Below are positions 671 through 49,205 of a stretch of DNA of 49,205 nt, piece by piece; the first letter of the stretch is position 1; each line of letters opens with the position of its first letter. The notes below the pieces were generated by a model. That model had not been told where the DNA came from and ran no database searches. It saw nothing but the letters and a program-made list of their open reading frames with translations. The translations under genes were made by a program, and so were the position numbers. The stretch is from a virus, in the IMG/VR virus record IMGVR_UViG_3300032213_002257, positions 1-49,205 of that record; one strand, given 5' to 3'.

Positions 671-981
671 AGGTACCAACACTAAGCCGCTGGCAATGGC
701 TGTACCTGCAGCTCATTGTCATGATGTGCGTCATGATGGCCGTGTCATTCCTGCCCGAGCATTTTCACGAGTTCTTTGGCGATTGGAAGTGCGCAGGCTC
801 AGGAGATTTCATTGAAAAGCATTGGAGATACGAACGCTGCAATTATGCTGACAGGAACTACCACCTACCAACTTGGCACTGGGGGTGGAGGCACTGGCTA
901 CTCACTCTGTTCGGCGTAGTGTTCTGCATTGTCAATGTAGCGCGCCTCATCGCGTTTTGGGAAAGGAGGCCAAACGTATGA
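667..981 (+). CDS. Small two-helix membrane protein, hypothetical
   Basis: 104 aa starting at GTG 667, which overlaps the previous stop (GTGA). Residues about 10-28 (YLQLIVMMCVMMAVSFL) and about 78-96 are hydrophobic and probably cross the membrane. The segment between them is rich in Trp, His and Tyr with two cysteines, and by length would form an exposed loop. No family recognised. It ends in ATGA, coupled to the next gene. A role in the cell envelope or in superinfection exclusion is possible, but nothing in the sequence proves it. Confidence 0.75.
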   Translation: MKVPTLSRWQWLYLQLIVMMCVMMAVSFLPEHFHEFFGDWKCAGSGDFIEKHWRYERCNYADRNYHLPTWHWGWRHWLLTLFGVVFCIVNVARLIAFWERRPNV

Positions 982-5069: not shown

Positions 5070-5832
5070 TTTCCCGTCCGAATTACGCCATTTCGCTGGC
5101 GTTATAAACACTTTTCGCGGTCATCACTATGACTACGACATTTTCCGCGACTTCGTTGACTACGTGGTCGCATGCTTGCTTTGGAACGGCGACCCAAAGC
5201 TCGCGGATGAGCTCAAGAACCGATACCGTGACGACTACCCCCGATTCAATGACCTGTTTGTTGCCCTGGTGCAGACCATGGCGGATCAGACCATTGACGC
5301 ACGATGGTACGACGCACTCGGCACACTCTATGAGGTAATTGCCTCGCGCAACAAATGCAGCTGGATGGGCCAGTTTTTCACACCCTCATCCCTATGCGAT
5401 TTGATGGCCCAAATGCAGGCTGGTGACGTGTCCGACGACGCCAGAACAGCCAACGACCCTGCGTGCGGCTCAGGGCGCACACTGCTTGCCCTGAACGCCA
5501 TCCGTCCGGGCCTGTATTACGTAGCGCAGGACCTTGACCCGATTTGCACAAAAATGGCCGCCATCAATATGGCTTTCCATGGCATCAAAGGCCAAGCTGT
5601 GAACGGCAACAGCCTGCAGCCCGATGAGTTCGTTTTCGGCTATGAGGTGAACCCGCGACTGTACACCATAGGCGGATTGCCTCACCTAGTGCCCATCACG
5701 CGCGAAACGTCATACGTGCACAATCTATGGGAGAAACGCCTTGAGCAACCCAGCACCCCCGAACCACCGAAAACGGAAAAACCTGCCCAAAATCTCGCTG
5801 GACTGCCCGCAACTCAGCTGAGTGTTTTCTGA
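5053..5832 (+). CDS. HsdM-like N6-adenine DNA methyltransferase fold, motif IV not seen
   Basis: 259 aa. ATG 5053 is chosen over the longer frame because AGGAG lies at 5046-5050 and MAKKTDFPSEL is a plausible start. An N-terminal helical region is followed by GQFFTPSSLCDLMAQM, like the conserved FxTP block of type I methyltransferases, and then by motif I, DPACGSGRTLLALN, for SAM binding; AQDLDPICTKMAAINM provides the acidic residue after it. The expected catalytic (N/D)PP(Y/F) does not appear after VNGNSLQPDEF; the region reads FGYEVNPRLYTIGG. The protein may therefore be inactive, regulatory, or use a divergent motif. Last gene before a terminator. Confidence 0.75.
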   Translation: MAKKTDFPSELRHFAGVINTFRGHHYDYDIFRDFVDYVVACLLWNGDPKLADELKNRYRDDYPRFNDLFVALVQTMADQTIDARWYDALGTLYEVIASRNKCSWMGQFFTPSSLCDLMAQMQAGDVSDDARTANDPACGSGRTLLALNAIRPGLYYVAQDLDPICTKMAAINMAFHGIKGQAVNGNSLQPDEFVFGYEVNPRLYTIGGLPHLVPITRETSYVHNLWEKRLEQPSTPEPPKTEKPAQNLAGLPATQLSVF

Positions 5833-5857
5833 CCGAACTCCGCAGCGTTGACATTCC

Positions 5858-5884
5858 GAAAGGCCCCGAAAGGGGCTTTTTTTG
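5858..5884 (+). terminator. Rho-independent terminator after the HsdM-like gene
   Basis: GCCCC (5863-5867), GAAA tetraloop, GGGGC (5872-5876), extended outward by G-T and A-T pairs, then seven T (5877-5883). It closes the operon that starts at 3190 and isolates the origin-like region to its right. Confidence 0.92.
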
Positions 5885-5985
5885 TTACACTGTATACGGT
5901 TTGTTGACACTATTGTTACACCTAGGTTATTGAAAACCAACATTGTAACGGCTGTAACAGAAAAAACGCTGCGAGAGAAAGCAAT

Positions 5986-6042
5986 CACACATGTATGCGT
6001 ATGCACATGCACACGCACGCACACACGCACATACGTATGTAT
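5986..6042. repeat. 57-bp alternating pyrimidine-purine tract (Z-DNA-prone)
   Basis: Every base from 5986 to 6042 alternates pyrimidine and purine, mostly CA/TG and CG steps with a few TA steps. The CA/CG-rich core at 6001-6034 is the part most able to flip to left-handed DNA under negative supercoiling. It directly adjoins the AT-rich repeats. Confidence 0.85.
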
Positions 6043-6109
6043 TATTATTATTATATTTTGTTACATATTTTATTATTATTAAGAGAATCAACGACTTAGG
6101 TTTAACACA

Positions 6110-6187
6110 CCGTCAACAAAATGCCGAAAACCGTCAACAAAACACCCAAAAACCGTAAACAAAATGGTGAATTCCGTCAACAAAATG
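6110..6187 (+). repeat. Four iterons with 21-22 bp period
   Basis: CCGTCAACAAAATG at 6110-6123; CCGTCAACAAAACA at 6131-6144; CCGTAAACAAAATG at 6153-6166; CCGTCAACAAAATG at 6174-6187. Starts are 21, 22 and 21 bp apart, i.e. two helical turns, so bound proteins would sit on one face of the DNA. Confidence 0.85.
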
Positions 6188-6226
6188 AAATTCACGCTTT
6201 CATGGTCGCGATGAATCGGTTTTTTG

Positions 6227-6240
6227 CATAGCTTGCCACT
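6227..6240 (+). promoter_or_regulatory. Probable late promoter box before gene Z
   Basis: CATAGCTTGCCACT is identical to 2109-2122 in front of the lysis genes, and the ATG follows immediately at 6241. No TTTG -33 box is at the expected place, so it may need an activator. The transcript would be nearly leaderless. Confidence 0.5.
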
Positions 6241-6870
6241 ATGATCGTCATCGAAGTGAACAAGACCATAGACCAGCTGCGCGACGCATTCAAAGAATTC
6301 CGTTCGCCGCAGGTTGCTGATGCCATGTCCAAGGCCCTGAACTCAGCTATGCTGAAAGCACGGAAAGCTGGTGCCGAGGAAATCAACAAGGTCTACAACC
6401 TTCGTGACCTCGTGGTCGCAACGTCCAAGATGCAAGGACGCAAAGCAACACCAGGCAATCTGACGGCCACACTCTACGCTGACCGCCTTGGCATCCAGCT
6501 CGCATATTTCGCACCTGCCCAAGCCATAGGGGAAAAGCGCCATATGTCCGTGGAAGTACGCAGAGGACAGCGTGAGACATTACGCAGCGCATTCTACGTG
6601 CACGCCAGAAAAGGGAAGGGCAACGAGATACAAAGCCTCTTTGCCCGTGGTGGCTACAAGGGCAGCAAATTCGAATTCCGTACCAAGCGCCTAGCGAAAT
6701 ACCCTCTGCCAGATACACCCATAGGGCTGCTGCGTACTACATCCCCACTATGCATGCTCAACGACAAGGCTGTGCGTGAGAGAATGGAAACTGTGGGCAT
6801 GCAGCACTTTGAGGACGCACTACAGCGCCAGCTCCGCAAGCTCATCAAGGGCAGGGACACAAGGGGCTAA
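6241..6870 (+). CDS. Putative prophage minor tail protein Z-like
   Basis: 209 aa from ATG 6241. The N-terminal arrangement (ADAMSKALNSAMLKARKAGAEEINKVYNL, then TSKMQGRKATPGNLTATLYADRLGIQLAYFAPA) matches the lambda Z / prophage minor tail Z pattern: a basic helical N-terminus, then beta-rich repeats with FYVHARKGKGNEIQSLFARGG. In lambda, Z is needed to complete the tail tip near the DNA end. Here it is far from the other tail genes, between the origin-like region and the methyltransferase cassette, and the tail is contractile. Its 3' end overlaps the G-rich quadruplex motif. Confidence 0.6.
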   Translation: MIVIEVNKTIDQLRDAFKEFRSPQVADAMSKALNSAMLKARKAGAEEINKVYNLRDLVVATSKMQGRKATPGNLTATLYADRLGIQLAYFAPAQAIGEKRHMSVEVRRGQRETLRSAFYVHARKGKGNEIQSLFARGGYKGSKFEFRTKRLAKYPLPDTPIGLLRTTSPLCMLNDKAVRERMETVGMQHFEDALQRQLRKLIKGRDTRG

Positions 6871-7178: not shown

Positions 7179-7814
7179 ATGGAAATGGCCAAACTCAAAA
7201 TCGAATATCGCAAGAATGCGACCCTCATACCCTATGTCGGCAATGCCCGTGTGCACTCCGCCACTCAGGTGCTGCAGATTGCCAAGAGCATCCAAGAGTT
7301 TGGGTTTGTGAATCCTGTTCTGGTGGACGGGCACAACGTCATTGTTGCTGGCCATGGCCGTGTGATGGCTGCGATGCAGTTGGGCATGGATGAGGTGCCA
7401 GTCATTCAGTTGACGGGCCTCAGCCAGCGCCAGGTGCGTGCACTCATCCTTGCCGACAACAAGATTGCGAGTAACGCAGGCTGGGACATGGGCAAGTTGG
7501 CAGAGGAGATTGCCGCGCTTGCTGATGCTGAGATGCCTTTGGATGTGTTGGGATTCGATGAGCAGGAGCTCGATGCGCTGCTCAAGGATGACCTGAACAT
7601 TCTGCCTGACGCTTGGACACCTCCACACGCGGGCACGTTCACGATTGCGCCTGAGCCTCCTCCTCCACCGCCACCGCTTCCACCCGTGGAACAGGGCGAG
7701 CTGCAGCAGGTAGCACCAACCGCGCCTGAGAGTTTCAGGCAGGTGGATGAGAATATTCACACGGATCACAAGTGCCCCAAGTGCGGCTACGAGTGGTCAG
7801 GAAAGCAGCAGTGA
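7179..7814 (+). CDS. ParB-like nuclease/NTPase domain protein with proline linker and zinc-knuckle end
   Basis: 211 aa. Residues about 10-90 form a ParB/Srx domain: LIPYVGNARVHSATQVLQIAKSI, FGFVNPVLVDGHNVIVAGHGR (the GHGR box), then LADNKIASNAGWD. A low-complexity proline linker follows at about 163-169, then a C-terminal CPKCGYEW single zinc knuckle. In many phages and mobile elements this ParB domain is fused to, or adjacent to, a DNA methyltransferase; here the C5 methyltransferase gene overlaps its stop (GTGA). It may be a targeting or accessory subunit of the modification cassette, but small-terminase-like and regulatory roles are also reported for related proteins. Confidence 0.8.
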   Translation: MEMAKLKIEYRKNATLIPYVGNARVHSATQVLQIAKSIQEFGFVNPVLVDGHNVIVAGHGRVMAAMQLGMDEVPVIQLTGLSQRQVRALILADNKIASNAGWDMGKLAEEIAALADAEMPLDVLGFDEQELDALLKDDLNILPDAWTPPHAGTFTIAPEPPPPPPPLPPVEQGELQQVAPTAPESFRQVDENIHTDHKCPKCGYEWSGKQQ

Positions 7815-8857
7815 AACCCCCGTACCGTGTACCGAGCATGAAGGAAATAACCGAGACCCCGTGGAATGGATTCTGTGCTGTGAGCACATTCAGTGGCGCT
7901 GGTGGCAGCTGCACAGGCTACCGCATGGCAGGGTTTCGGGTTCTGTATGCCAACGAATTTATTGCCGAGGCGCAGCGCACGTACCGCAAAAACCACCCGA
8001 GTTCAGTCTTGGACCCGCGGGACATTCGCAAGGTAGGCGCTGAGGACATTCTGCGGGCTACGGGCAAGAGAGCAGGCGAGATTGACCTGTTCGATGGCTC
8101 GCCACCTTGCAGCTCGTTCAGCACTGCAGGCAGGCGTGAGAAACTATGGGGGCAAGAGAAGCGATACAGCGACACCACCCAGCGGACTGACGACCTGTTT
8201 TTCGAGTACATCCGATTGGTGCGCGAGCTGCAGCCGAGGACCTTCATTGCCGAGAACGTTAGTGGATTAGTGAAGGGCACGGCCAAGGGCTATTTCAAGC
8301 AAATCATTCGGATGATGAAGGACTGCGGCTACAACGTTGAGGCTCAGGTCCTCGATGCCCAGTGGCTTGGCGTACCGCAAACCCGCGAACGGGTGATCTT
8401 CTTTGGCGTGCGCAATGACCTGAACCGAGCTCCACAATTTCCGACACCCCTGCCCTACCGATACACCCTGCGTGATGCGCTGGAAGGTGTGCCCGATGGC
8501 CCCAAGAAGTTCGTCAAGGATGGGTTGCTCACGAAGTGGATGTACGAGCACACACCTGCTGGCAAGTCATTCCAATGGGCAAGCGAACACCATTTGAACA
8601 AACCAGGCGCTTGGCACAGCCATGTGCGCCTGAGCTGGGACAAACCCAGTTATACCGTTTTGCAAAGCAAGGCGCAGAGCTACCACCCTGACGAGTGCAG
8701 GCCGCTGACCATTCCCGAGGTCAAGCGCGTGTGTAGCTTTCCCGATGATTACATCCTGACCGGTAACTGGTCGCAGCAGTGGGAACGCTGCGGGCGTTCG
8801 GTACCGCCAGTGATGATGTTCCACATAGCCAAAGCCGTCGAGAGAACCCTGTCATGA
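7811..8857 (+). CDS. C5-cytosine DNA methyltransferase with Arg in motif X (possible carboxymethyltransferase)
   Basis: 348 aa from GTG 7811, coupled by GTGA. Motif I is FSGAGG (about 27-32); motif IV GSPPC has catalytic Cys100; motif VI is ENV (148-150); motif VIII is QTRERVIFFG (190-199); the target-recognition region is about 200-295; motif IX is RPLTIPEVKRVCSFPDDY; motif X is CGRSVPPVMM. Family members almost always have Asn after the motif X Gly (GNS); here codon CGT gives Arg329. That Asn lies near the transferred methyl group, and a basic residue there could hold a carboxylate. Together with the overlapping CmoA-like gene this suggests carboxy-SAM as cofactor. Ordinary methylation cannot be excluded. 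Confidence 0.9.
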   Translation: MKPPYRVPSMKEITETPWNGFCAVSTFSGAGGSCTGYRMAGFRVLYANEFIAEAQRTYRKNHPSSVLDPRDIRKVGAEDILRATGKRAGEIDLFDGSPPCSSFSTAGRREKLWGQEKRYSDTTQRTDDLFFEYIRLVRELQPRTFIAENVSGLVKGTAKGYFKQIIRMMKDCGYNVEAQVLDAQWLGVPQTRERVIFFGVRNDLNRAPQFPTPLPYRYTLRDALEGVPDGPKKFVKDGLLTKWMYEHTPAGKSFQWASEHHLNKPGAWHSHVRLSWDKPSYTVLQSKAQSYHPDECRPLTIPEVKRVCSFPDDYILTGNWSQQWERCGRSVPPVMMFHIAKAVERTLS

Positions 8858-14494: not shown

Positions 14495-16498
14495 ATGGCA
14501 GAGAACAAAATGAAAATGGACGCGATGCTCACGAGAGCAGTAGGTCCATCAAACGTAAATGCGGAAGCCCGCACTGCTGATGTAGTGTTCGCAACCGACA
14601 CGCCTGTGCGCACCTATTCATGGAGCCTGGGCGGTGAGTTCGAGGAGGTGCTTTCCTTTGACCCTGCTCACGTCCGCATGGACCGCCTGAAAAACGGTGC
14701 TCCTGTGCTGGATAATCACAACCGCTGGGGCGGAACAACCTCAGTGCTTGGTGTTGTCGAGAGCCCTACACTTGAGGCGAACCAAGGCCGCGCAACGCTG
14801 AGATTCAGCAAGCGCGAATCTGTTGACCCGATTTTCCAAGACGTAGTGGACGGCATCCTCAAAGGCGTGTCCGTTGGCTATCGTGTTTACAAATACGAGG
14901 ACATGAACCCCGAACGCAAAGCGGGTGAAATGCCACGTTACCGCGCAATTGACTGGGAGCCGATGGAAATCAGTCTTGCACCAGTACAGGCGGACTACAA
15001 ATCCTCTGTAAGAAACGAGAACGCCGAGACCATTGAGGTTGAAGTAATCTCAACCCGCGCTGCAGCTCCTGCAGCAGACCCGAAACCTGAAAACCAAAAC
15101 CGAAATTCAAATAATACCATGTCTGACAAACACAACGAAGGCAGCGAAGAGCAAAATCGCGCTGCTAACCCGGTAAACGTGGACGAGGTACGCAACGCGG
15201 CCATTCAGGCTGAACGCAAGCGTGCTGCCGATATTCGCGATGCCGTAAGAAAAGCAAAGCTCGGTGACGAGTTCGCCACTGAGCTGATTGACAAAGGCAC
15301 CTCAATCGAGGCTGCCCGCGAAGCAATCATCGAGAAATTTGCCGCTGCCGACGTAAACGAAGGCCAGCGTAACATCACCGTAGGTGCTGACGAAGCCGAC
15401 AAACGTCGCGACGCCATCACTGACGCCTTGGTATTGCGTGCAATGCCCGAGGCTTCCACCAACACCACAATCATGCCTGCTGAACGTGTTTCTGCAGCGC
15501 GTGAATTCCGTGGCATGACCATGTTGGAGATTGCTCGCGAAAGCCTCGAAAGAGCTGGCGTGAGTACCCGCGGCATGGACAAGATGGAAATGGTGGGCCG
15601 TGCTTTCACGCAGACCCAGTCTGATTTCCCTGTGTTGCTGGAAGGTACTAACCGCCGTGTGCTGTTGGCTGCCTACGCAACGGTTGCAGACACCTGGCGC
15701 AGATTCTGTGCTGTTGGTTCTGTTGGTGACTTCCGTGAGTACAAGCGTCTGCGCATGGGCTCCATCACCAACTTGGACGCCTTGGGTGAGGGCAGCGAGT
15801 TCAAGCAGAAGAAAATCACTGACGCTGATTACGAAAAAATCAGCATCGGGACCAAGGGCAATATCATTGCTGTGACTCGTCAGATGATCATCAATGATGA
15901 CTTGGCTGGTTTGACCCGCTTGGCGACTATGCTTGGCCGTGCTGCAGCTCGCAGCATTGAGGCGGACGTGTACGCTTTGTTGCTCAGCAACAGCGGAAAC
16001 GGTCCTAACATGGTGGACGGCAACCCATTGTTCCATGCAAGCCACGGCAACATCGGAACTCCTGCAGCTTTGTCTGTTTCCAGCATAGACGCTGACCGCG
16101 TGTTGATGGCGCAGCAGAAGGAAAAAGACGGCAACGATTTCTTGGGCCTTACCCCAAGCATCCTCGTTCTGCCTATCGGCCTTGGCGGCGCGGCTCGTGT
16201 AATCAACGGGTCACAGTACGACACTGAGGTGTCGAACAAGTTCCAAGTTCCAAACAAGGTGAACGGCTTGTACCGTGAAATCGTGGACACCCCACGCTTG
16301 ACCGGAACTACTCGCTACTCATTCGCAGATCCTATGGTGGAGCCTGTGCTTGAGGTTGCGTTCTTGGACGGCCAGCAGGCTCCGTACTTGGAAAGCCAAA
16401 ACGGCTGGAACATCGACGGAACTGAGTGGAAGGTTCGTCTTGACTACGGCGTTAGCGCAGTAGGCTACCGTGGTATTGTGAAGAATGCTGGTGCGTAA
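14495..16498 (+). CDS. Prohead protease / major capsid protein fusion
   Basis: 667 aa. The first 180 residues look like an HK97-type prohead protease: VLDNHNRWG with His75 and GVSVGY with Ser126 as catalytic pair, then YRAIDWEPMEISLAPVQADY. A charged, disordered linker with a helical scaffold-like segment (about 185-285) leads to a Mu gpT-type HK97-fold capsid domain (for example TRQMIINDDLAGLTRLATMLGRAAARSIEADVYALL and VNGLYREIVDTPRLTG). Met209 at 15119, behind an AAATAATACC start region, could give a separate 459-aa scaffold/capsid product in excess over the full protein. Confidence 0.9.
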   Translation: MAENKMKMDAMLTRAVGPSNVNAEARTADVVFATDTPVRTYSWSLGGEFEEVLSFDPAHVRMDRLKNGAPVLDNHNRWGGTTSVLGVVESPTLEANQGRATLRFSKRESVDPIFQDVVDGILKGVSVGYRVYKYEDMNPERKAGEMPRYRAIDWEPMEISLAPVQADYKSSVRNENAETIEVEVISTRAAAPAADPKPENQNRNSNNTMSDKHNEGSEEQNRAANPVNVDEVRNAAIQAERKRAADIRDAVRKAKLGDEFATELIDKGTSIEAAREAIIEKFAAADVNEGQRNITVGADEADKRRDAITDALVLRAMPEASTNTTIMPAERVSAAREFRGMTMLEIARESLERAGVSTRGMDKMEMVGRAFTQTQSDFPVLLEGTNRRVLLAAYATVADTWRRFCAVGSVGDFREYKRLRMGSITNLDALGEGSEFKQKKITDADYEKISIGTKGNIIAVTRQMIINDDLAGLTRLATMLGRAAARSIEADVYALLLSNSGNGPNMVDGNPLFHASHGNIGTPAALSVSSIDADRVLMAQQKEKDGNDFLGLTPSILVLPIGLGGAARVINGSQYDTEVSNKFQVPNKVNGLYREIVDTPRLTGTTRYSFADPMVEPVLEVAFLDGQQAPYLESQNGWNIDGTEWKVRLDYGVSAVGYRGIVKNAGA

Positions 16499-16527
16499 TT
16501 CCTGACCACGAAATAGAGATTCAAAAC

Positions 16528-16550
16528 GGGGCCAGCTAAACACTGGCCCC
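16528..16550 (+). other. Hairpin after the capsid gene, no U tract
   Basis: GGGGCCAG (16528-16535) pairs perfectly with CTGGCCCC (16543-16550), loop CTAAACA. It is followed by ATTGTAAAAC, not a T run. Likely an mRNA 3'-end stabiliser or partial terminator that separates capsid from downstream expression. Confidence 0.65.
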
Positions 16551-16581
16551 ATTGTAAAACCCCGAAATAAGTAAAACCAAA

Positions 16582-16914
16582 ATGGCAAATAATTTCATCC
16601 AAGACGGCGACGTTCTCGACATCGTCGTTTCAGCTACCACTACCAGTGGTACACCTGTTTTGCGCGGTACTCGCTTGACCATCCCACTCAAGAGTGGCGT
16701 TTCAGGCGACACTATTGCGCACGCTGTTGAAGGCGTGTTCGAAATCACTAAAGCAACCGGCGCAGGCACAGGCTTGACTGTCGGAGCAATTGCTTACTGG
16801 GACGACACCGCAAAGAAGGTGACTGGCTCCGCAAGCGGAAACACCGCTATCGGATGGGCTGTTGAAGATGCTGGCACTGCTGTGGCCACTGCAAAAGTGA
16901 AGCTGTACTGCTAA
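16582..16914 (+). CDS. Capsid cement/decoration protein (DUF2190-like)
   Basis: 110 aa. IQDGDVLDIVVSATTTSGTPVLRGTRLTIPL, then HAVEGVFEITKATGAGTGLTVGAIAYWDDTAKKVT and NTAIGWAVEDAG follow the DUF2190 pattern of small beta-barrel cement proteins that bind the capsid surface and stabilise the expanded head. It directly follows the capsid gene, separated by a hairpin, as expected for a protein made in similar amounts. Confidence 0.85.
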   Translation: MANNFIQDGDVLDIVVSATTTSGTPVLRGTRLTIPLKSGVSGDTIAHAVEGVFEITKATGAGTGLTVGAIAYWDDTAKKVTGSASGNTAIGWAVEDAGTAVATAKVKLYC

Positions 16915-17772: not shown

Positions 17773-18122
17773 GCAACGAGGCAGTTTATACAGGCGAGGA
17801 CATGGAGCTCATACTTGAGTTTCACGACATCAATTTCGCGGACTTACAGGACGTTATTGTGGGTGTTGTGATTGGCAAGGAGCTCAAAAAGACCTGCAAG
17901 AAAAGCAGCGGCACCGATGCCCTCAAAGTGGTGGCCGTGAGTGGTCAGCCTACTCAGTGCAAGTTCCGTCTGTTTCGCAGCGAAACCAAAACGTGGGCAA
18001 GCGGTCCAATGACCGTTGAGGTGACACAAGTGTTTGCGGATGCAGGTTTCCCTGACGGGAAGCACACGCCGTACAAGATAATCGCACCGATGTTCGAGAA
18101 CCTTTTCACCAAGAACAGCTAA
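17769..18122 (+). CDS. Structural hypothetical protein
   Basis: 117 aa. A beta-rich protein beginning AVYTGEDMELILEFHDINFADLQDVIVGVVIGKELKKTC, similar in style to BppU-like or fibre N-terminal domains that contain a ligand-binding Ig-like strand order, but I cannot assign it. It is the first gene of a block of adhesin-like genes between the tail terminator and the sheath, and touches the next gene by one base. Confidence 0.6.
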   Translation: MSNEAVYTGEDMELILEFHDINFADLQDVIVGVVIGKELKKTCKKSSGTDALKVVAVSGQPTQCKFRLFRSETKTWASGPMTVEVTQVFADAGFPDGKHTPYKIIAPMFENLFTKNS

Positions 18123-18574
18123 TGCCGGGAAAAGTTACCCTCATAATGAACAGCTCGCGCATGCAAGAGACCATCATTGCGGAACGCAAGATGCTTTTGG
18201 CTATGCCTGGCGTTCCCGGTCCTGCGGGTGATCCTGGTGCGCGCGTGAAATACGCGGCGGGTCAGGCTACGAGCTCGGGCAGGCTTTTGACCGCGCTTAG
18301 CAATCAGGCTGTGTACTTCGACCCATCGGGCAACTTTGAGCCTGCAGGCATTGCACTGAACGCCGCAATTCAAGGCGACGAGGTGACAGTTATACTGAAT
18401 GGCCCGATTGAGATTTCAGGCTGGGGATTGACCCCTGGTGCTGCATACTTTGCAGGCCCGAACGGAACACTACTCAGCGACCCTGCACAATGCGTCGGCA
18501 GGGTTCAGCAAATCGGCGTGGCCGAGGACGCAAATACCCTTATCATCAACATCCAACCAGCAATAATCCTATAA
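18122..18574 (+). CDS. Fibre-like structural protein with short collagen-type stretch
   Basis: 150 aa. Residues about 29-40 read GVPGPAGDPGA, a short Gly-X-Y collagen-like segment, then a beta-rich C-terminal domain with QAVYFDPSGNFEPAGIALNAAIQGDEVTVILNG and GAAYFAGPNGTLLSDPAQC. That pattern recurs in small phage head-fibre and capsid-surface proteins, which form trimers. Start codon ATG 18122 overlaps the preceding stop by one base. Confidence 0.65.
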   Translation: MPGKVTLIMNSSRMQETIIAERKMLLAMPGVPGPAGDPGARVKYAAGQATSSGRLLTALSNQAVYFDPSGNFEPAGIALNAAIQGDEVTVILNGPIEISGWGLTPGAAYFAGPNGTLLSDPAQCVGRVQQIGVAEDANTLIINIQPAIIL

Positions 18575-18578
18575 AACC

Positions 18579-19085
18579 ATGGCAAAATATGTAGCCCTAA
18601 TTGCCGGAAAGCTCAAAGAGGTATCCGGTCTATCCACCAGCGCAGGCGCAGGTGACGCAGGTAAAATCCCACAGCTCGACGGCGCAGGCCGTTTGGATAG
18701 CAGCATGATGCCTGTTGGATTCGGCGCGGAAACCAAGACCATCGTGGCGAGTGAAAACCTTGCTGCTGGTGACTTCGTGAACGTGCACGTTTCAGCAGGT
18801 TTGAAAGTGCGCAAAGCGGACGCATCAGGCGGACCTGCAAAAAAGGCCCACGGATTTGTGCTTGCCGCTGTGACAAGCGGGCAGAACGCGACCGTGTACT
18901 ACGGCAACATCAACAACGCTGTGTCAGGCTTCACCGCGGGTGATGAGTTGTTTTTGAGTGCCACCCCTGGCGTTGCTACTGCAACCCCTCCAAGCACTGC
19001 TGGACATATCGTGCAGCGTATCGGTGTTGCAACTGCTACCACCGAAATCCTTGTCGAGTTCGGTCAAGAAGTAGAAATCGCGTAA
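18579..19085 (+). CDS. Fibre/decoration-like structural protein
   Basis: 168 aa. It starts AKYVALIAGKLKEVSGLSTSAGAGDAGKIPQLDGAGRLDSSMMPVGFG, a common trimeric fibre entry, followed by a barrel domain (NLAAGDFVNVHVSAGLKVRKADA and AVSGFTAGDELFLSATPGVAT) like that of the previous gene. The repetition suggests that the two arose by duplication. Probably exposed on head or tail; receptor unknown. Confidence 0.65.
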   Translation: MAKYVALIAGKLKEVSGLSTSAGAGDAGKIPQLDGAGRLDSSMMPVGFGAETKTIVASENLAAGDFVNVHVSAGLKVRKADASGGPAKKAHGFVLAAVTSGQNATVYYGNINNAVSGFTAGDELFLSATPGVATATPPSTAGHIVQRIGVATATTEILVEFGQEVEIA

Positions 19086-19094
19086 CGCAGTCAA

Positions 19095-19844
19095 ATGCCT
19101 GAACGTAAACCCCTCGTCCTTGTCAATGGTCGCATTCGAGAGATTGCGGCCACTGATACCATTCCTGCAGCGAATGCCCCAGCGGGTGGTTCTACTGTTG
19201 CCGTTTTTGTGGACCAAACCCCTGACAACGGTACATATGGGCTGCTTGGTGGTTCCGTGAACGGCACCAATACGGTGTTCACGGTTTCGCAGGGTTCGTA
19301 CCTATCAGGCACACTGCAGGTGTACGTGAACGGTCAGCTGCAGACGCAGGGTGCAACGAACGACTTTCAAGAGACAACGCCAAACAGCGGAACATTCACG
19401 TTCGTGTCTGCTCCGATCAATGGTGAGATAATAACTGCCATCTATCAGAAGGCAGTTGTAAGCCTTGCGGGCGGAAACCTATCGGGTGCGCTTAACGAGT
19501 TTGAAGGTACTCCAATAGCATCGGCTGCCACTACCGACATTGGTGCAGCTGGCGGCAACTTCGTCATCATCACAGGCAGCGCGACAATCACCGCTTTGGG
19601 CACGGCTCAGGCTGGCTCGAGAAGGCTGCTGCGATTCACAGGGCAACCCACACTCACACACAACGCAACCAGTTTAATTCTACCAGGCGCACTTAACTTC
19701 GTGCCGAATGTGGAGGACTTGGTTGAATTCACAAGTGAAGGCTCGGGCAACTGGCGCATGACGGGCTATTTCCCGACGCTGCAGAGCCCACCATCATTTT
19801 ACGGACAACTCATGGCCAGAATGGCCGGAAACATAATGTTTTAG
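19095..19844 (+). CDS. Tail or head fibre-like protein
   Basis: 249 aa. An N-terminal segment RKPLVLVNGRIREIAATDTIPAAN resembles the VNGxI entry of phage fibres; the middle (NTVFTVSQGSYLSGTLQVYVNGQLQ) is a beta-sandwich-like repeat also found in phage receptor-binding modules, and the end (FVPNVEDLVEFTSEGSGNWRMTGYF) is a typical fibre shaft. No enzymatic motif. It lies in the adhesin block. Confidence 0.65.
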   Translation: MPERKPLVLVNGRIREIAATDTIPAANAPAGGSTVAVFVDQTPDNGTYGLLGGSVNGTNTVFTVSQGSYLSGTLQVYVNGQLQTQGATNDFQETTPNSGTFTFVSAPINGEIITAIYQKAVVSLAGGNLSGALNEFEGTPIASAATTDIGAAGGNFVIITGSATITALGTAQAGSRRLLRFTGQPTLTHNATSLILPGALNFVPNVEDLVEFTSEGSGNWRMTGYFPTLQSPPSFYGQLMARMAGNIMF

Positions 19845-19846
19845 AC

Positions 19847-20308
19847 ATGCCAGCAAATACCAACCCAATATTTACAAAGACCCCAAACGTGGGCAGGGTA
19901 TCAATCCCGACCACGAACGCGCTTGCCGCTTCAAACGGTGCCTCATCTGGTACCGGTGCATCAATGATGTACAAGGTTTTCACAGCGGGAGCCGATGGAA
20001 GTTTCATTGAACGCATACGTTTTATTCCAGTTGCTTCTGCAGCTGGTGTGACCAGTGTTGCAACTACCCTCAGAGCCTTTTTGAGCACTGTGGCAAACCC
20101 TGGCGCGACAACCGCAGCCGATACCTTTCTCATTGGCGAGGTTTCTGCAGCAGCTCAGTCTGCATCGAACAGCACCAACTCCACGAACTATGTGGATATG
20201 GTGTTGAACATGGCTATCCCTGCGGGAACATTTATCCACGTTGCTCAGCACGTGGCCCAAACAACTAACCAAAACTGGAACGCCGTAGGAATCGGCGGCG
20301 ACTACTAA
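19847..20308 (+). CDS. Structural protein, adhesin block
   Basis: 153 aa, Ala/Thr/Asn-rich without charged patches. The sequence (TNPIFTKTPNVGRVSIPTTNALAASNG and FIERIRFIPVASAAGVTSVATTLRAFL) looks like an all-beta virion protein; similar small proteins occur next to fibres in myoviruses. It touches the glycine-rich adhesin gene by one base. Function not known. Confidence 0.6.
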   Translation: MPANTNPIFTKTPNVGRVSIPTTNALAASNGASSGTGASMMYKVFTAGADGSFIERIRFIPVASAAGVTSVATTLRAFLSTVANPGATTAADTFLIGEVSAAAQSASNSTNSTNYVDMVLNMAIPAGTFIHVAQHVAQTTNQNWNAVGIGGDY

Positions 20309-21246
20309 TGCAGGGCCTCGTACACTTACCTAATCTGAACACAGGTGGCGTTGCCATATTCCTGAACAGTGGTCAGGTGAACGGCCAAGGCTATCAGATA
20401 TGGCGCAAGCCGAAAGGCGCGACATGGGTTTCCTTTGTCGTTGTCGGAGGCGGTGGTGGCGGAGGCGGTGGCTTCTCGCGTACCGCTGGCTCAGCTGGTG
20501 GCGGCGGAGGTGGTGGAGCATGCTCAGGCATAGCTCGTTTCGCTTGCCCTGCTGCCTTGCTGCCTGACGAGCTCTACATCCAAGTAGGCGCAGGCGGAAT
20601 AGGTGGCGCAGCTGGTGCAGCAGGCGCAGCAGGAACCAACAGCTTTGTGCTGCTTGGCCGCACTGCGGTGCTGCCCAACATCCTCGTCTACAGCGGTGTG
20701 AACGCACCAGGCGGTGGTGGTGGTGGCACAGGTGCTGCAGCAGGTACTGCTGGAACCGTTCCAACCATAGCAGTGACGCAGCCCACCAACACGTGGGGCG
20801 AGTGGTTCGCATCTGTGGGCCTTGTTGGCGTTGTGGGCGGTGCTCAGACTGGCGCAGTAGGAACATCAGTGACGGCGTGGGCAGCATTGCCATTGTCGCC
20901 AGGCGCAGGCGGGGCAGGTTGCACAACGACTGACTTTGCAGGCGGTGCCCAAACGGCCACTGCGCTGCTCGATGTTCAGAACCAACTGTATGTGCCCAGC
21001 ACGGCTGGCGTACTTGCACCGGGCGGAACAGCTGCGGGTGCAAGTGTCGATGGCAGCCCAGGAATCAAACGCATTGCCCCGTTCTACAACTCAGGCGGAG
21101 CTGGTGGCGGTAGCAACAACGCAGGCCAAGGTGGCCAAGGTGGCGCAGGTGGCTACGGCTGCGGAGGCGGTGGCGGTGGCGCAGGTGTAACAGGTGGCCG
21201 CGGTGGAAACGGCGGCGATGGAATCGTAATCATAAGCTGTATTTAA
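20308..21246 (+). CDS. Glycine-rich adhesin-like protein
   Basis: 312 aa with about a third glycine. A short beta start (YQIWRKPKGATWVSFVVVGGGGG) leads to many poly-Gly runs, including GGGGGGGGG and AGGGGGGGA, separated by hydrophobic loops, and the end reads GRGGNGGDGIVIISCI, the usual close of glycine-rich phage and bacterial surface domains. Such runs can pack as polyglycine type II sandwiches, as in T-even gp38-type adhesins, with the loops between them contacting the receptor. Probably the main or an accessory receptor-binding protein; the length of G runs may vary by slippage. Confidence 0.7.
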   Translation: MQGLVHLPNLNTGGVAIFLNSGQVNGQGYQIWRKPKGATWVSFVVVGGGGGGGGGFSRTAGSAGGGGGGGACSGIARFACPAALLPDELYIQVGAGGIGGAAGAAGAAGTNSFVLLGRTAVLPNILVYSGVNAPGGGGGGTGAAAGTAGTVPTIAVTQPTNTWGEWFASVGLVGVVGGAQTGAVGTSVTAWAALPLSPGAGGAGCTTTDFAGGAQTATALLDVQNQLYVPSTAGVLAPGGTAAGASVDGSPGIKRIAPFYNSGGAGGGSNNAGQGGQGGAGGYGCGGGGGGAGVTGGRGGNGGDGIVIISCI

Positions 21247-25049: not shown

Positions 25050-26940
25050 TGCGGTGTCTAAGCAGGAAAAGCGTCTGAAAGACTTGGCCAAGAGTGGCCG
25101 TGAGGTATTCAGCAAGGGCCTTGCTCAGGCTGGTGCTGGTGTGGCTATGGCCATGCCATTGGTTGAGGCTACCAAGTCAGCCGTGGCGTTCGAGGACGCA
25201 ATGGCAGACGTGGCCAAGGTGATGAACATCACCGTGGGTTCCGCGGACTTCACCAAGATGGGTGAGCAAGCCAAGGACGTGGCGGAAGCCATGGGAATCG
25301 GCGCGACGGAATCAGCCAAGATGATGGCCAACCTCGCAGCCGGTGGCGTTGCAGATGGCGAGCTCAAGCAAGTTGCCATGCTCGCGGGTCAGATGGGTAT
25401 CGCGTTCAACATGTCAGCCGACCAGGCGGGCACGTCGTTTATCAAAATCAAGAACGCACTGAACCAACCAATCGGTGAGACCAAGGTCCTCATGGACCAA
25501 ATAAATATGCTGTCTGACAGCATGGCTTCAGAGGCAAACGAGATAGTCAACTATATGGCCTCGGGCGGTTCGTCCGTGGCTGCCTCATTCAAGATTGCAG
25601 GAGCTGCGTCCGCTGCGTTCGGTTCGACACTTATAAGCGTGGGCAAGAGCTCGAGTGAAGCGGCCACTATTATGGAACGTTTCGCCAAGGGCATCTTCAA
25701 GAACGAGGACATGAAGGCCATCTTTGACCAAGCAGGCGGTGGAGCTGCAGGCCTTATGGCCGTGCTCGATTCAGGGCGGAATTCAAAGGACCCGTTCGAG
25801 TTTTTCAGGAGCTTTGGAGAATACGGCACCGACATCAATATGTTGGCCCAGAACTTCGACCTGCTGAGTGCTGCAGTTCAGAGCACTGGTGATGCTACCA
25901 AGTACACGGACAGCGTACAGAAAGAGTTCAACAACAGAAACAGCACCACAGCGGGTCAGATGCGTAGGCTGAAAGCCGCGTTTGAGGTGCTCGTTATCGA
26001 CATCGGCAATTTCTTTATTCCGATACTGCAGAAGGTTGTCGCATTCATCAAACCGATTGTGACTGCCATACGAGATTGGGCCAAGGAGCATCCCGGTCTG
26101 ACCAAGGGAATTCTCGCGGTCACTGCAGCGATATCAGGAATGATGATTGCCGTGGGCATATTCAATATGATTCGCGGCGCGGTAATGATGCTGAATGTTG
26201 TTCTGCTGATGAACCCGTTCATATTGGTGGCAACTGCTGCAATTGTAGCAGTGACACTCATCTATACCTACTGGGACAAAATCAAAGCGTTCTTTGTGAA
26301 CCTCTGGCAGAACGTGAAGAACATTTTCGCGCGCGTTTGGGAGTGGATAAAGAACCTGCTCGTGATGATGAGCCCTGCCCTGCTTATCTATAAGCACTGG
26401 GACAAAATCACGGCTTGGTTCCGCGACCTATGGGAAAAGGTCAAGCAGGTGTTCGTTGCCATTTGGCAGTGGTTCATCGACCTGCACATCAAGATGGTGG
26501 AAGCGGGCAAGAACCTGATGGAAGGATTGTGGGAAGGCATCAAGGCGATGGCCTACAAGCCTATTGAGGCTGTGAAGGAAATCGGCGCTGCCATCAAAAA
26601 CCAGTTCAAGGACATCCTTGGAATCAAGTCACCCTCGCGGGTGTTCATGGAGTTCGGTGGCCATATCTCAGGCGGTGCAAGCCTTGGTATCAAGAAGGGC
26701 ATCGGCAAGGCACGTGAGGCCACTCAGCAGCTCGCAAGCGCAATAGGCGCACCTGCAGCAGTTCCCGCGGGTGGCTACGGTGGTGGCAGCACCAGCGTGA
26801 ACTACTCGCCAGTGATCAATATCACAGGTACAGGAGCAGGGTCCAAAGACGACCTGATGGCCGTGCTCCGTAAACACCAAACTGAATTAATGAGAATGAT
26901 TGAGGACGCGCAAGCGAGAAAGGCCAGGGCTGCATTCTAA
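24985..26940 (+). CDS. Tail tape measure protein, TP901 type
   Basis: 651 aa from GTG 24985. A conserved N-terminal domain (AFEDAMADVAKVMN, FTKMGEQAKDVAEAMGIGATESAKMMANLAAGGV and GQMGIAFNMSADQAGTSF), then hydrophobic helices at about 375-435 (GILAVTAAISGMMIAVGIFNMIRGAVMMLNVVLL), repeated WDKI...FR/FVNLWQNVK...W units at about 430-510, and the usual C-terminal IKSPSRVFMEFGGHISGGASLGI. It sets tail length (roughly 100 nm at 0.15 nm per residue, a family rule of thumb) and is ejected into the envelope. Confidence 0.93.
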   Translation: MKALEIALILTAYDKATRVLNDAVSKQEKRLKDLAKSGREVFSKGLAQAGAGVAMAMPLVEATKSAVAFEDAMADVAKVMNITVGSADFTKMGEQAKDVAEAMGIGATESAKMMANLAAGGVADGELKQVAMLAGQMGIAFNMSADQAGTSFIKIKNALNQPIGETKVLMDQINMLSDSMASEANEIVNYMASGGSSVAASFKIAGAASAAFGSTLISVGKSSSEAATIMERFAKGIFKNEDMKAIFDQAGGGAAGLMAVLDSGRNSKDPFEFFRSFGEYGTDINMLAQNFDLLSAAVQSTGDATKYTDSVQKEFNNRNSTTAGQMRRLKAAFEVLVIDIGNFFIPILQKVVAFIKPIVTAIRDWAKEHPGLTKGILAVTAAISGMMIAVGIFNMIRGAVMMLNVVLLMNPFILVATAAIVAVTLIYTYWDKIKAFFVNLWQNVKNIFARVWEWIKNLLVMMSPALLIYKHWDKITAWFRDLWEKVKQVFVAIWQWFIDLHIKMVEAGKNLMEGLWEGIKAMAYKPIEAVKEIGAAIKNQFKDILGIKSPSRVFMEFGGHISGGASLGIKKGIGKAREATQQLASAIGAPAAVPAGGYGGGSTSVNYSPVINITGTGAGSKDDLMAVLRKHQTELMRMIEDAQARKARAAF

Positions 26941-35618: not shown

Positions 35619-35670
35619 AACACAGGGGCCGACATCAATAAGAGCCCAAAAGTGAATAGCAAATTTGCAG

Positions 35671-35704
35671 AGCCCGACATACCTTCACTGTCGGGCTTTT
35701 TTTA
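35671..35704 (+). terminator. Rho-independent terminator after 35256-35618
   Basis: AGCCCGACA (35671-35679) pairs with TGTCGGGCT (35689-35697), loop TACCTTCAC, followed by a run of T. Transcription box TATATTTG begins directly after it. Confidence 0.92.
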
Positions 35705-35790
35705 TATATTTGCATCCACCGCAATCATAAATACAGCCCTTTGGGCATCAAACATGTAAAAGGCCTCGGAAATCCGAGGCCTTTTTTTTC
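35705..35790 (+). ncRNA. Candidate small RNA between two terminators
   Basis: TATATTTG at 35705-35712 lies right after one terminator and about 50 bases before the next (AGGCCTCGG 35761-35769 / CCGAGGCCT 35774-35782, AAAT loop, eight T). It would give a transcript of about 70 nt without coding potential. The -33 box is weak, so expression is uncertain. Confidence 0.4.
35757..35790. terminator. Terminator, probably bidirectional (small RNA + / integrase -)
   Basis: 9-bp GC-rich stem, AAAT loop, eight T on the plus side and AAAA before it, which gives UUUU for minus-strand transcripts. The integrase (minus) stops at 35875, so it may end here. Confidence 0.85.
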
Positions 35791-35791
35791 T

Positions 35792-35876
35792 TACCTTTGC
35801 TCACCCTTTCTCGACAGGGGTCCGAATCGACTTTCAGCCAGGCTGGATTTTATGGGGGCCAGGCCCCCTTTTTTTT
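35792..35876 (+). other. Second promoter-terminator unit, uncertain small transcript
   Basis: TACCTTTG at 35792-35799 matches TAnnTTTG, and GGGGG-CCAGG-CCCCC (35854-35868) followed by eight T ends the unit. About 70 nt, no ORF. The unit touches the integrase stop, so it could instead be part of the attachment region. Confidence 0.4.
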
Positions 35877-39079: not shown

Positions 39080-39107
39080 CGAATCACCCTGTTGTGTTGG
39101 GCGGGCG

Positions 39108-39115
39108 CAAACTTA
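39108..39115 (-). promoter_or_regulatory. Minus-strand promoter box for recE-recT
   Basis: Reading the minus strand, TAAGTTTG matches TAnnTTTG; its ATG is about 28 bases further. The -33 region is T-rich without a clear TTTG. It faces away from the plus promoter at 39142-39171. Confidence 0.6.
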
Positions 39116-39141
39116 AAAATAATTTTCAAAAAGAAAAATTT

Positions 39142-39171
39142 TTTGTTTCGGTTTTTCTCGCTTTATATTTG
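39142..39171 (+). promoter_or_regulatory. Plus-strand promoter of the replication operon
   Basis: TTTG 39142-39145, 18-bp spacer, TATATTTG 39164-39171. It lacks the GTC-N4-GAC dyad found at the other strong TATATTTG promoters, and may be the control point opposite recE. Starts the 39188 gene after 16 bases. Confidence 0.8.
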
Positions 39172-39187
39172 CGGCTCACAAAACATC

Positions 39188-39409
39188 ATGGAAAATATTG
39201 GAAAGTCATTGAAAGCAAGATGCGCCCTTGCAGGCACTACTCTTAAAGAGGTGTGCAGCCGTGCGGGCGTTACTCCTGCAACGATTCGGAACTGGGCAGA
39301 GGCAGAGCCCAAGAGCCTGAGAACATACAGGGCGGTTGTGAAAGCAATTGAGGAGATAGAACTAGAAAAATCGGCAACAGATGCTGAGCCTGCGACCATA
39401 TCAAAGTAA
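39188..39409 (+). CDS. Small XRE-like HTH regulator
   Basis: 73 aa from ATG 39188. IGKSLKARCALAGTTLKEVCSRAGVTPATIRNWAEAEPKSLRTYRAVVKAIEEIE reads as a five-helix lambda-repressor-like domain (T-x-K-E-V-C-x-x-A-G-V-x-x-x-T-I). With divergent promoters on its left it is the best candidate for a Cro/CI-type switch protein; no full-length CI with an oligomerisation domain was found. It overlaps the helicase gene by 29 bases. Confidence 0.8.
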   Translation: MENIGKSLKARCALAGTTLKEVCSRAGVTPATIRNWAEAEPKSLRTYRAVVKAIEEIELEKSATDAEPATISK

Positions 39410-40799
39410 GGCCGTTGCCGATATTAGGCAGAGCTACGTTGAGGGGCGCAGAGCACCTTTATTGTGCTTGCCTACAGGTGGCGGGAAAACTGTGGTGTTC
39501 AGCCATATTGCTGCAAGTGTTGCAGGACGTGGCAAGCGCGTGATGGTGCTGGTGCACCGTGTGGAACTGCTCAGGCAGACATCCGCTGCACTCGGCAAGA
39601 ACGGCGTGGACCACAGCCTCATCAACCCGCAGTACACACCCGACTACCGCAAGCCTGTGCAGGTGGCCAGCGTTCAGACGTTGGTGAAGCGGTTAAACTT
39701 TTTCGACCGATACCCGCCTGACCTGATTGTGGTGGACGAAGCTCACCACGCCAACGCAGGCAGCTGGCGCAAAATCATTGCCCACTTTCCCAATGCTCGA
39801 GTGCTGGGCGTAACAGCTACACCCTGCAGGGGTGACGGCTCAGGCCTCGGCGTGGAAGCAGGTGGTGTGTTCGATGACCTTATAATTGGGCCACAGGTTC
39901 CCGAGCTCATCGAGGGCGGCTACCTGGTCAAGCCAGTGGTGTATGCGCCACTGAGCCGCTTGGACCTTTCGGGCGTCCGCGTTGTCCGCGGTGACTATGA
40001 CAACAAGGAACTCGCCAAGCGGGTGGATAAGCCAACCATCACTGGCGATGCCGTGGCGCACTATTCCAAGCTGTGTCCTGGTGCTCCTGCGGTGGTGTTC
40101 TGCATCAGCGTTGCGCACGCTGAGCACGTGGCAGCGGAATTCAGAGCCGCAGGCTACCGCGCATATTCTGCTGACGGCTCGATGGACGACGATACCCGCA
40201 AGCGCATCCTCGGAGGCCTTGCAAATGGATCGGTTCAGATTGTCACGAGCTGCGACCTCATAAGCGAGGGCACGGACATCCCTGCCATTGGCTGCGCCAT
40301 ATTGCTCAGACCAACACAGAGCACAGGCCTGTTCATTCAGCAGGTAGGACGTGCGCTGCGTCCATGCGCTGGCAAGGACAGAGCCATCATATTGGACCAC
40401 GTGGGCAATGTGCTCACGCATGGAATGCCCGACCAAGAACGAGAGTGGTCACTCGACGGTGATGCTCGCAAGGGCAAGAAAAAGGGCGATGCACCGCCAC
40501 CAGTGCGAGTGCGCCAGTGCCCTGCTTGCTACTCAGTGCATGAGCCTGCGCCAGCGTGTCCAAGCTGCGGGCATCAGTATGCACCTGAGCCGAACAAGCT
40601 GAACCAAGAGGCAGGCGAGCTGCAGGAGATAACTCCTGAGCAAGCCATCAGAATCAAACGTGAGAAAGCTCGCGAGGTGGCGACAGCTCGCACCCTCGAG
40701 GAGCTCGAGGCGATAGGCCGCAAACGTGGCTACAAACATGGCTGGGCGAAACACATCTGGGCCAGCCGCCAATCTAAGCAACCAACATCAACAGTATGA
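39381..40799 (+). CDS. Superfamily 2 DNA helicase with zinc ribbon
   Basis: 472 aa. SLRPYQSKAVADIRQ (Q-like motif), PTGGGKT (31-37), DEAH (119-122), GVTATPCRGDG, IVTSCDLISEGTDIPAI and QQVGRALRPCAGK mark all helicase motifs. A C-terminal CPACYSVHEPAPACPSCGH forms a zinc ribbon (about 379-396). Related phage helicases travel with VRR-NUC nucleases and DnaQ exonucleases, as here (43088 and 41535). It may remodel recombination or replication forks. Confidence 0.93.
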   Translation: MLSLRPYQSKAVADIRQSYVEGRRAPLLCLPTGGGKTVVFSHIAASVAGRGKRVMVLVHRVELLRQTSAALGKNGVDHSLINPQYTPDYRKPVQVASVQTLVKRLNFFDRYPPDLIVVDEAHHANAGSWRKIIAHFPNARVLGVTATPCRGDGSGLGVEAGGVFDDLIIGPQVPELIEGGYLVKPVVYAPLSRLDLSGVRVVRGDYDNKELAKRVDKPTITGDAVAHYSKLCPGAPAVVFCISVAHAEHVAAEFRAAGYRAYSADGSMDDDTRKRILGGLANGSVQIVTSCDLISEGTDIPAIGCAILLRPTQSTGLFIQQVGRALRPCAGKDRAIILDHVGNVLTHGMPDQEREWSLDGDARKGKKKGDAPPPVRVRQCPACYSVHEPAPACPSCGHQYAPEPNKLNQEAGELQEITPEQAIRIKREKAREVATARTLEELEAIGRKRGYKHGWAKHIWASRQSKQPTSTV

Positions 40800-46162: not shown

Positions 46163-46194
46163 CTTGCAACAGGTCTGACTTATCTACTGTTGGG

Positions 46195-46228
46195 AAGGGG
46201 CTGCGGGAAACCGTGGCCCTTTCTTTTT
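46195..46228 (+). terminator. Terminator after the primase-helicase gene
   Basis: AAGGGGCTGCGG, GAAA loop, CCGTGGCCCTT with three wobble pairs, then TCTTTTTG. The start is at 46195. Confidence 0.82.
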
Positions 46229-46258
46229 GCCCAAAACGCAAAAATTTTTTCGCTTTCC

Positions 46259-46291
46259 TTTGGTCGTATGACAAAAGTCACTTTATATTTG
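46259..46291 (+). promoter_or_regulatory. Promoter of radC with dyad operator
   Basis: TTTG 46259-46262, 21-bp spacer, TATATTTG 46284-46291, ATG four bases later. Dyad TTTGGTC-GTAT-GACAAAA at 46259-46276, its GAC 14 bases before the box. Confidence 0.85.
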
Positions 46292-46295
46292 CCAC

Positions 46296-46742: not shown

Positions 46743-46778
46743 GCTCATCGAAAATAACCGAAAATATTTTTGCTTTTA

Positions 46779-46811
46779 CTTGGTCAAATGACAAAAACAG
46801 TTTTATATTTG
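46779..46811 (+). promoter_or_regulatory. Promoter of the 46831 operon with dyad operator
   Basis: CTTG 46779-46782, 21-bp spacer, TATATTTG 46804-46811. Dyad GGTC-AAAT-GACAAAA, with the GAC 14 bases upstream of the box as in the two related promoters. Confidence 0.82.
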
Positions 46812-46830
46812 CACACACAACAACAACAGT

Positions 46831-48637: not shown

Positions 48638-49205
48638 ATGGAACCATTAATTTCATTTGCGGGGTGGCTGCTCGTTGTAGCATTTGCCCTATTCTTTGCG
48701 GGGCAGTACCTACAAACCCGCGAAAAACTTGTGCTTGAGAAAAAAGACCGCATCGACCTCAAAGAGGCATTCACTGGGTTGCAGCGACAGTACCAGGAGG
48801 TATGCCTCGACCGTGACCGCCTCGAGGCGAATGCGCGCCAAATAGCGCAGGACCGCGACAAGGCCTATGACAGGGTTGAGGAGCTGACAGAGCATAACAC
48901 TCAGCAATGGATTGAATCTAAGGCGGCAAGCGCACAGCTTGAAGCTATCCAGCTTATTATTCAAAAGCACGGTTACGTGTGGGACACAACAATTACCAGC
49001 AGTGCGAACGTTGAAAAATACCTTGGTATTGTCTTTCGCGACTTAAAGTCCGAACAACAAGCGCGAGGTGAGTTCAAAAAGAACGTCGACACTTTCATGA
49101 AGGCCAAGGCAATGGTTGACCAGCTCGTTGCCGCTGCGCGTGAAATCAAACCGCGCGGAGCAGTCAAAAAAGCCACTTATCAACGCCTGCAGGACGCACT
49201 CGCCA
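48638..49205 (+). CDS. Membrane-anchored coiled-coil protein, N-terminal part (continues at 1-149)
   Basis: From ATG 48638 the frame is open to the contig end and continues at base 1 (197 aa in all). Residues about 4-24 (LISFAGWLLVVAFALFFAGQYL) form an N-terminal membrane helix; the remainder is mostly charged helix (EKLVLEKKDRIDLKEAFTGLQRQYQE and DRDKAYDRVEELTEHN). Similar N-anchored coiled coils in phages have no proven role. It starts two bases after the previous TAA. Confidence 0.85.
   Translation, partial: MEPLISFAGWLLVVAFALFFAGQYLQTREKLVLEKKDRIDLKEAFTGLQRQYQEVCLDRDRLEANARQIAQDRDKAYDRVEELTEHNTQQWIESKAASAQLEAIQLIIQKHGYVWDTTITSSANVEKYLGIVFRDLKSEQQARGEFKKNVDTFMKAKAMVDQLVAAAREIKPRGAVKKATYQRLQDALA
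49083..49205. repeat. Terminal direct repeat, right copy
   Basis: Identical to 1-123; see the left copy. It shows that the molecule was closed or permuted. Confidence 0.95.

Follow-up and report, generated by a model that had tools for sequence, protein, structure and literature searches.

A very probable iteron-type replication origin, with the phage's own primase-helicase as candidate initiator, in a myovirus genome and its distant relatives

Where does the copying of a phage genome start, and which protein opens it? A located origin or a named initiator is rare for phages outside a few model systems. The window (the whole stretch of DNA analysed, 49,205 bases) raises this question at one non-coding gap, positions 5885-6240, which separates the early genes from the late genes. 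An exact 123-bp direct terminal repeat (1-123 and 49083-49205 of the 49,205-base record) indicates that the record is the full map of a circular genome of 49,082 bp. Its gene content is that of a myovirus, including an integrase, RecE/RecT-like proteins, an SF2 helicase, a primase-helicase and a late block extending from 6241 to ~34 kb. TAnnTTTG, a Bacteroidota promoter element, has 11 matches in the 4.1 kb of intergenic gaps against ~1.5 expected (shuffle mean), which points to a Bacteroidota-like host; judged from promoter elements alone, the host is probably a member of this phylum. Elements of the TTTATATTTGC type, typical of Bacteroidota promoters, are seen at 39080-39380, 46163-46295, 46743-46830 and 35619-35874 of the window.

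The initial annotation had described the gap as a classical layout for replication initiation, with four phased repeats next to an AT-rich tract and a tract of strict alternation, and on recheck its list of elements was correct in nearly every detail (Table 1). The right-arm iterons are 12-14 bp long and phased, with four copies at spacings of 21, 22 and 21 bp; in shuffles of the gap any 12-mer has at most two copies, compared with the four observed. The exact 9-mer GTCAACAAA occurs four times in the whole 49 kb, always in the gap. One of these occurrences is the reversed core that had been noted at 5900-5908, an exact copy lying within a left-arm iteron. The GTTACAC/TGTAAC elements were located at 5884-5890, 5915-5921, 5944-5949 and 5953-5958, and the alternating tract is exactly 57 bp, a length reached by none of 300 shuffles. 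Several features had been missed, namely a second set of three outward-pointing iteron-like repeats on the left side (~20 and 11 bp apart), a further iteron-like element, TTTTGTTACAT, within the AT tract (6056-6066), a conserved box joining the AT tract to the right-arm iterons, and an inverted copy of this box. Multiple phased direct repeats in non-coding DNA and an adjacent AT-rich unwinding element, two marks of an iteron origin, are both present in the gap. An Rfam search of the gap gave no match.

Table 1. Features of the gap and related genes (window coordinates unless stated).
Feature	Position	Strand	Basis or remark
Terminator-like hairpin GCCCC-GAAA-GGGGC, then T7	5863-5883	+	Closes early operon; from sequence by eye; absent from the terminator-scan list
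Left-arm iteron-like repeat GTGTAACAAAA	5880-5890	-	Sequence
Left-arm iteron GTGTCAACAAACC	5898-5910	-	Contains the reversed core of the initial annotation
Left-arm iteron-like repeat GTGTAACAAT	5912-5921	-	Sequence
Weaker inverted box copy TTTCAATAACCTAGGTGT	5918-5935	-	Leave-one-out matrix 12.5 vs shuffle 95th percentile 9.5
Two TGTAAC elements	5944-5958	.	Sequence
Strictly alternating purine/pyrimidine tract, Z-DNA-prone, 57 bp	5986-6042	.	
AT-rich tract, presumed DNA unwinding element	6040-6083	.	95% A+T in best 40 bp
Conserved box AGAATCAACGACTTAGG	6084-6100	+	Core 6086-6098 equals IHF consensus WATCARNNNNTTR
Degenerate first iteron GGTTTAACAC	6099-6108	+	Alignment: position of first iteron in relatives
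Iteron 1 CCGTCAACAAAATG	6110-6123	+	
Iteron 2 CCGTCAACAAAACA	6131-6144	+	
Iteron 3 CCGTAAACAAAATG	6153-6166	+	
Iteron 4 CCGTCAACAAAATG	6174-6187	+	
First late gene, neck / tail-completion, phrog_27	6241-6870	+	Marks equivalent gap in relatives
SF2 helicase gene	39381-40799		
Primase-helicase, proposed initiator: CHC2 zinc finger and TOPRIM primase fused to Cch/SaPI-Rep-like AAA+ helicase, variable C-terminal domain	43469-46162	+	
C-terminal domain of primase-helicase	residues ~770-897		
521-aa protein gene	47071-48636		Without Pfam or PHROG match

Relatives were gathered using the primase-helicase as bait, and they keep an equivalent gap before the neck gene or its positional counterpart. The same gap carries the same order of elements with a different iteron sequence: TGTAAACA in L002 and L188 (primases ~52% and ~51% identical), and GTTACG iterons in three Bordetella phages (~43% identical), where AAAAGAATCATAGACTTAGGCGGTTACG stands beside the AT tract compared with TTAAGAGAATCAACGACTTAGG in the window. 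The window's own iteron, GTCAACAA, is found in L266, an extension of L127 (~52% identical), and Pseudomonas phage ZRG1 has at least eight GCTAACG-type repeats around an AT tract in the same gap. In the ZRG1 record this gap spans 25467-26028, and the DUF6371 primase gene spans 18121-21012. More distant loci (L219, L166, L132, L160, L130, L141 and others) also show left iterons, AT tract and right iterons, several of them together with the alternating tract and the box, and the inner iteron of the AT tract is shared by L002, L188, L266, L219 and L166. The iteron counts in this origin set are not independent evidence, since the set was chosen partly by iteron content. Overall, dozens of viruses that are only distantly related have this layout, for which there seems to be no earlier description, and this comparative evidence strongly favours the reading of the gap as a site of replication initiation. 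A DNA-level search of the gap in phage records found no relatives, and a search of viral contigs with the neck protein gave no match.

Two further repeat arrays were seen among the relatives. In L266 a second cluster, of eight GATACAAA repeats (7864-8104), lies just upstream of the iteron origin and may represent an additional origin element or an array of operators. At the contig end of L187, a close relative, 16472-16693 holds at least eight tandem copies of a 27-28-bp unit, AGAAAATATTTTAACACTTTTTTTTCTC.

The core of the conserved box (6086-6098) matches the IHF consensus exactly. IHF sites prefer an AT tract on their 5' side, and the box has its AT tract on that side. The exact consensus is present in 12 of 31 origins, against 1.2 expected. 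A box matrix built from nine sites, with the nine seed-supplying origins scored leave-one-out, recovered the box in 16 of the 31 at p<=0.05 (P ~2e-13). In most cases the first iteron follows the box without a break, and in L132 both arms carry the box, as mirror images. When 2.9 million viral contigs were scanned blind for the box together with an iteron, a single locus matched, L272, and a protein of the same primase family is encoded in that record (E 6.7e-249). Scanning for the box only (AGAATCANNGACTTAG) gave matches that, among those listed, were mostly expected by chance. With a longer box as the only query, 47 stretches matched, and L272 alone among them carries a full-length primase-family member, so the box is shared beyond this origin system. 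It is not diagnostic by itself, since it also occurs outside such origins.

Box-only matches fell just after tRNA 3'-end fragments in 5 of 43 distinct cases (L273, L281, L290, L293 and L296), the arrangement of prophage attachment sites, which suggests an IHF-type site beside the integration core; an ARAGORN search found no whole tRNA adjacent to the box, where only such 3'-end fragments stand. Mirror-image boxes with GGGGATT repeats are present in L308 (4250-4600) and L316, both phage contigs without a detected primase-family member, and these are perhaps the origin of another replication system that shares the bending site. That its matches adjoin tRNA fragments and GGGGATT repeats fits a general DNA-bending site better than a private initiator site.

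Neither the box nor the alternating tract served as a criterion when the origin set was selected. Alternating runs of at least 16 were seen in 13 of 32 origins, whereas 46 other non-coding gaps had none (Fisher P ~1.6e-6); among random stretches of the same length from the same loci, 0.85% had such a run. Most origins with a run of this kind have it on the primase side, between the AT tract and the left iteron arm; in ~10 of the 13 the run lies just 5' of the AT tract or merges into it, with L199 and L200 differing and L190 overlapping. The sequences themselves are dissimilar, being CA/TG-rich in the window, CG/TG-rich in L130 and TA-rich in L190. It is conceivable, though on balance doubtful, that the tract is a functional part of the origin, Z-DNA-forming or topological, in which alternation is selected and sequence is unconserved, and that it governs where or when the origin opens. 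To our knowledge no described phage origin has an alternating tract, and such tracts go unmentioned in the portions surveyed of a limited body of phage-origin papers.

The position of repeat clusters relative to the primase gene was compared across 96 non-redundant primase loci. In 18 of the 96, a significant cluster is centred 50-700 bp past the primase stop codon, against 1.2 expected from the rate elsewhere in the same loci (Poisson P ~1e-15, an optimistic value because the loci share ancestry). Clusters that are not adjacent tend to lie further downstream. The window is of this kind, its origin lying ~8.7 kb from the primase stop, with the remainder of the early operon in between. Roughly half of the primase-family loci lack a clear repeat cluster, in part owing to the fragmentary state of the contigs. 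On the pattern across these loci, repeat clusters are linked to the primase gene, not to late genes.

One alternative is that a phage transcription regulator uses the repeats as operators to turn on the late operon from 6241. The first late gene begins just after the gap, the 21-22-bp phasing would also suit activator sites, and the late operon needs a promoter somewhere. However, in many relatives the equivalent cluster directly follows the primase gene, and two outward arms around an AT tract would be unexpected for an activator. A sigma-70-like promoter was sought in 5750-6300 and none was found; TAnnTTTG is likewise absent from the gap, though common in other gaps of the genome. RcMeacham, our one control, which has a related terminase and no such primase annotated, has neither an AT tract nor comparable iterons ahead of the late genes. 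We consider the operator explanation unlikely.

If the gap is an origin, which protein reads it? The initial annotation had stated that the initiator was not obvious and that no RepA-like protein was present. The latter was borne out for the ORFs covered by the Pfam scan (small ORFs fell outside it), which yielded no RepA, Rep_3, DnaA, lambda-O-like or ParA protein and no winged-helix Rep of the RepA/pi/RepE plasmid kind. The former was not, as the iteron clusters of relatives and a predicted Cch-like fold point to a strong candidate, the primase-helicase. This 897-aa protein has a DnaG-like CHC2 zinc finger and TOPRIM region. Pfam matches only Zn_ribbon_DnaG and DUF6371 in it, and DUF927, of the Cch branch, gives no Pfam match. 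AlphaFold2 models had a mean pLDDT of 89.8 for the whole protein and 90.6 for the helicase plus C-terminal half. For the latter, SCCmec Cch ranked first among the structural matches (5dgk; E 3e-9, TM 0.48-0.50, over nearly the full length), ahead of SaPI5 PriRep1 and poxvirus D5/E5, with sequence identity to Cch of only ~10%. The helicase half is accordingly predicted to fold like SCCmec Cch, a SaPI-Rep-type helicase. SCCmec Cch is related to SaPIbov1 Rep, the C-terminal domain of SaPI Rep reads iterons directly downstream of the rep gene, and the C-terminal domain of Cch2 binds direct repeats (PMC7581432). Iteron similarity among our loci tracks primase relatedness (r ~0.3), and its covariation with the C-terminal domain is weak and not separable from that of the helicase domain (partial r 0.10, p 0.025). 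A candidate initiator encoded by the same replicon and evolutionarily linked to such repeats, a third mark of an iteron origin, is thus found in the primase-helicase.

The origin could instead be opened by another phage protein, e.g. the SF2 helicase or the 521-aa protein, with the primase-helicase only priming and unwinding. Several early proteins of the window have no recognisable domain, which leaves room for such a protein. Against this, the repeat clusters go with the primase gene in the comparison of 96 loci, and the helicase half is predicted to fold like Cch, a helicase of the self-loading type. The 521-aa protein matched L266 alone among the relatives tested (32% identity to its counterpart there). 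We regard another initiator as very unlikely. A parS-like partition centromere for the ParB-like protein at 7179-7814, encoded 1 kb downstream, is hardly credible, as no ParA was found among the scanned ORFs, the protein matches ParB-like nuclease and methyltransferase-associated families with ParB_N below threshold only, ParB-like genes near the terminase also occur in RcMeacham without comparable iterons, and the AT and alternating tracts would be left without a role.

Together, this evidence indicates that the gap is almost certainly the start site of phage DNA copying and that its iterons are probably bound by the phage's own primase-helicase. The whole explanation, an iteron-type replication origin at 5885-6240 opened by that protein, we hold to be highly probable. 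Given the Cch-like fold and the published repeat binding by SaPI Rep and Cch2, the simplest model is that the primase-helicase binds the arms, loads at the AT tract and primes there. It would bind the two outward-pointing iteron arms as two opposed rings, probably through its C-terminal domain, while a host protein of the IHF/HU family would bend the DNA at the box that separates the AT tract from the right arm. Melting of the AT tract would follow, possibly aided by the neighbouring alternating tract absorbing superhelical strain; the helicase would be loaded there, and its own DnaG-like half would prime both strands. The expected outcome, fork direction included, would be theta replication of the circularised genome.

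Cumulative GC skew had been proposed as a check on the location of the origin. Its raw minimum, at 7267 (~7.3 kb), was not significant by third-position and gene-permutation tests, and the Bordetella relatives had no skew minimum agreeing with the window. We rejected skew as origin evidence because, with codon position and gene order taken into account, it favours no one site as the origin.

An origin of this type can be recognised by its anatomy and paired with a probable initiator across phages of Bacteroidota, Bordetella, Pseudomonas and others. For metagenomic phages this gives a rule for finding origins, which is to look in the first long gap after a CHC2/TOPRIM primase-helicase. The many natural iteron/initiator pairs offer material for studying how specificity evolves, and the origin set provides a test case for the action of alternating tracts in origins.

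Among known systems, the likeness to SaPI Rep and SCCmec Cch lies in an iteron origin used with an AAA+ helicase, here the candidate reader, and, for 18 of the 96 primase loci, in repeats placed just after the helicase gene. SaPI iterons also come in two sets flanking an AT-rich region. Unlike SaPI Rep and Cch, the window protein carries a DnaG-type CHC2/TOPRIM primase in the same chain, its origin has an IHF-type box and an alternating tract and lies ~8.7 kb from the gene, and the system belongs to full-size myoviruses. The alpha protein of phage P4 combines a zinc-TOPRIM primase, a ring helicase and a C-terminal origin-binding domain, and P4 ori consists of iterons plus an AT-rich tract, with a second site, crr, also required. 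By analogy, the window system would share with P4 the primase, ring helicase and C-terminal domain in one chain and the pairing of iterons with an AT-rich tract, whereas its helicase subfamily differs from that of alpha by name. The iteron plasmids P1, R6K, pSC101 and RK2 have phased iterons and an AT-rich unwinding element, some with IHF sites, and their initiators are winged-helix Rep proteins that recruit DnaB; in contrast, no winged-helix Rep was found among the scanned ORFs of the window. The minimal replicon of the archaeal plasmid pRN1 comprises a primase-helicase and a required 166-bp region downstream of the replication operon (PMC4234260). pRN1 shares with the window a primase-helicase plus a downstream region, and differs in being archaeal and in its primase superfamily (PMC4234260).
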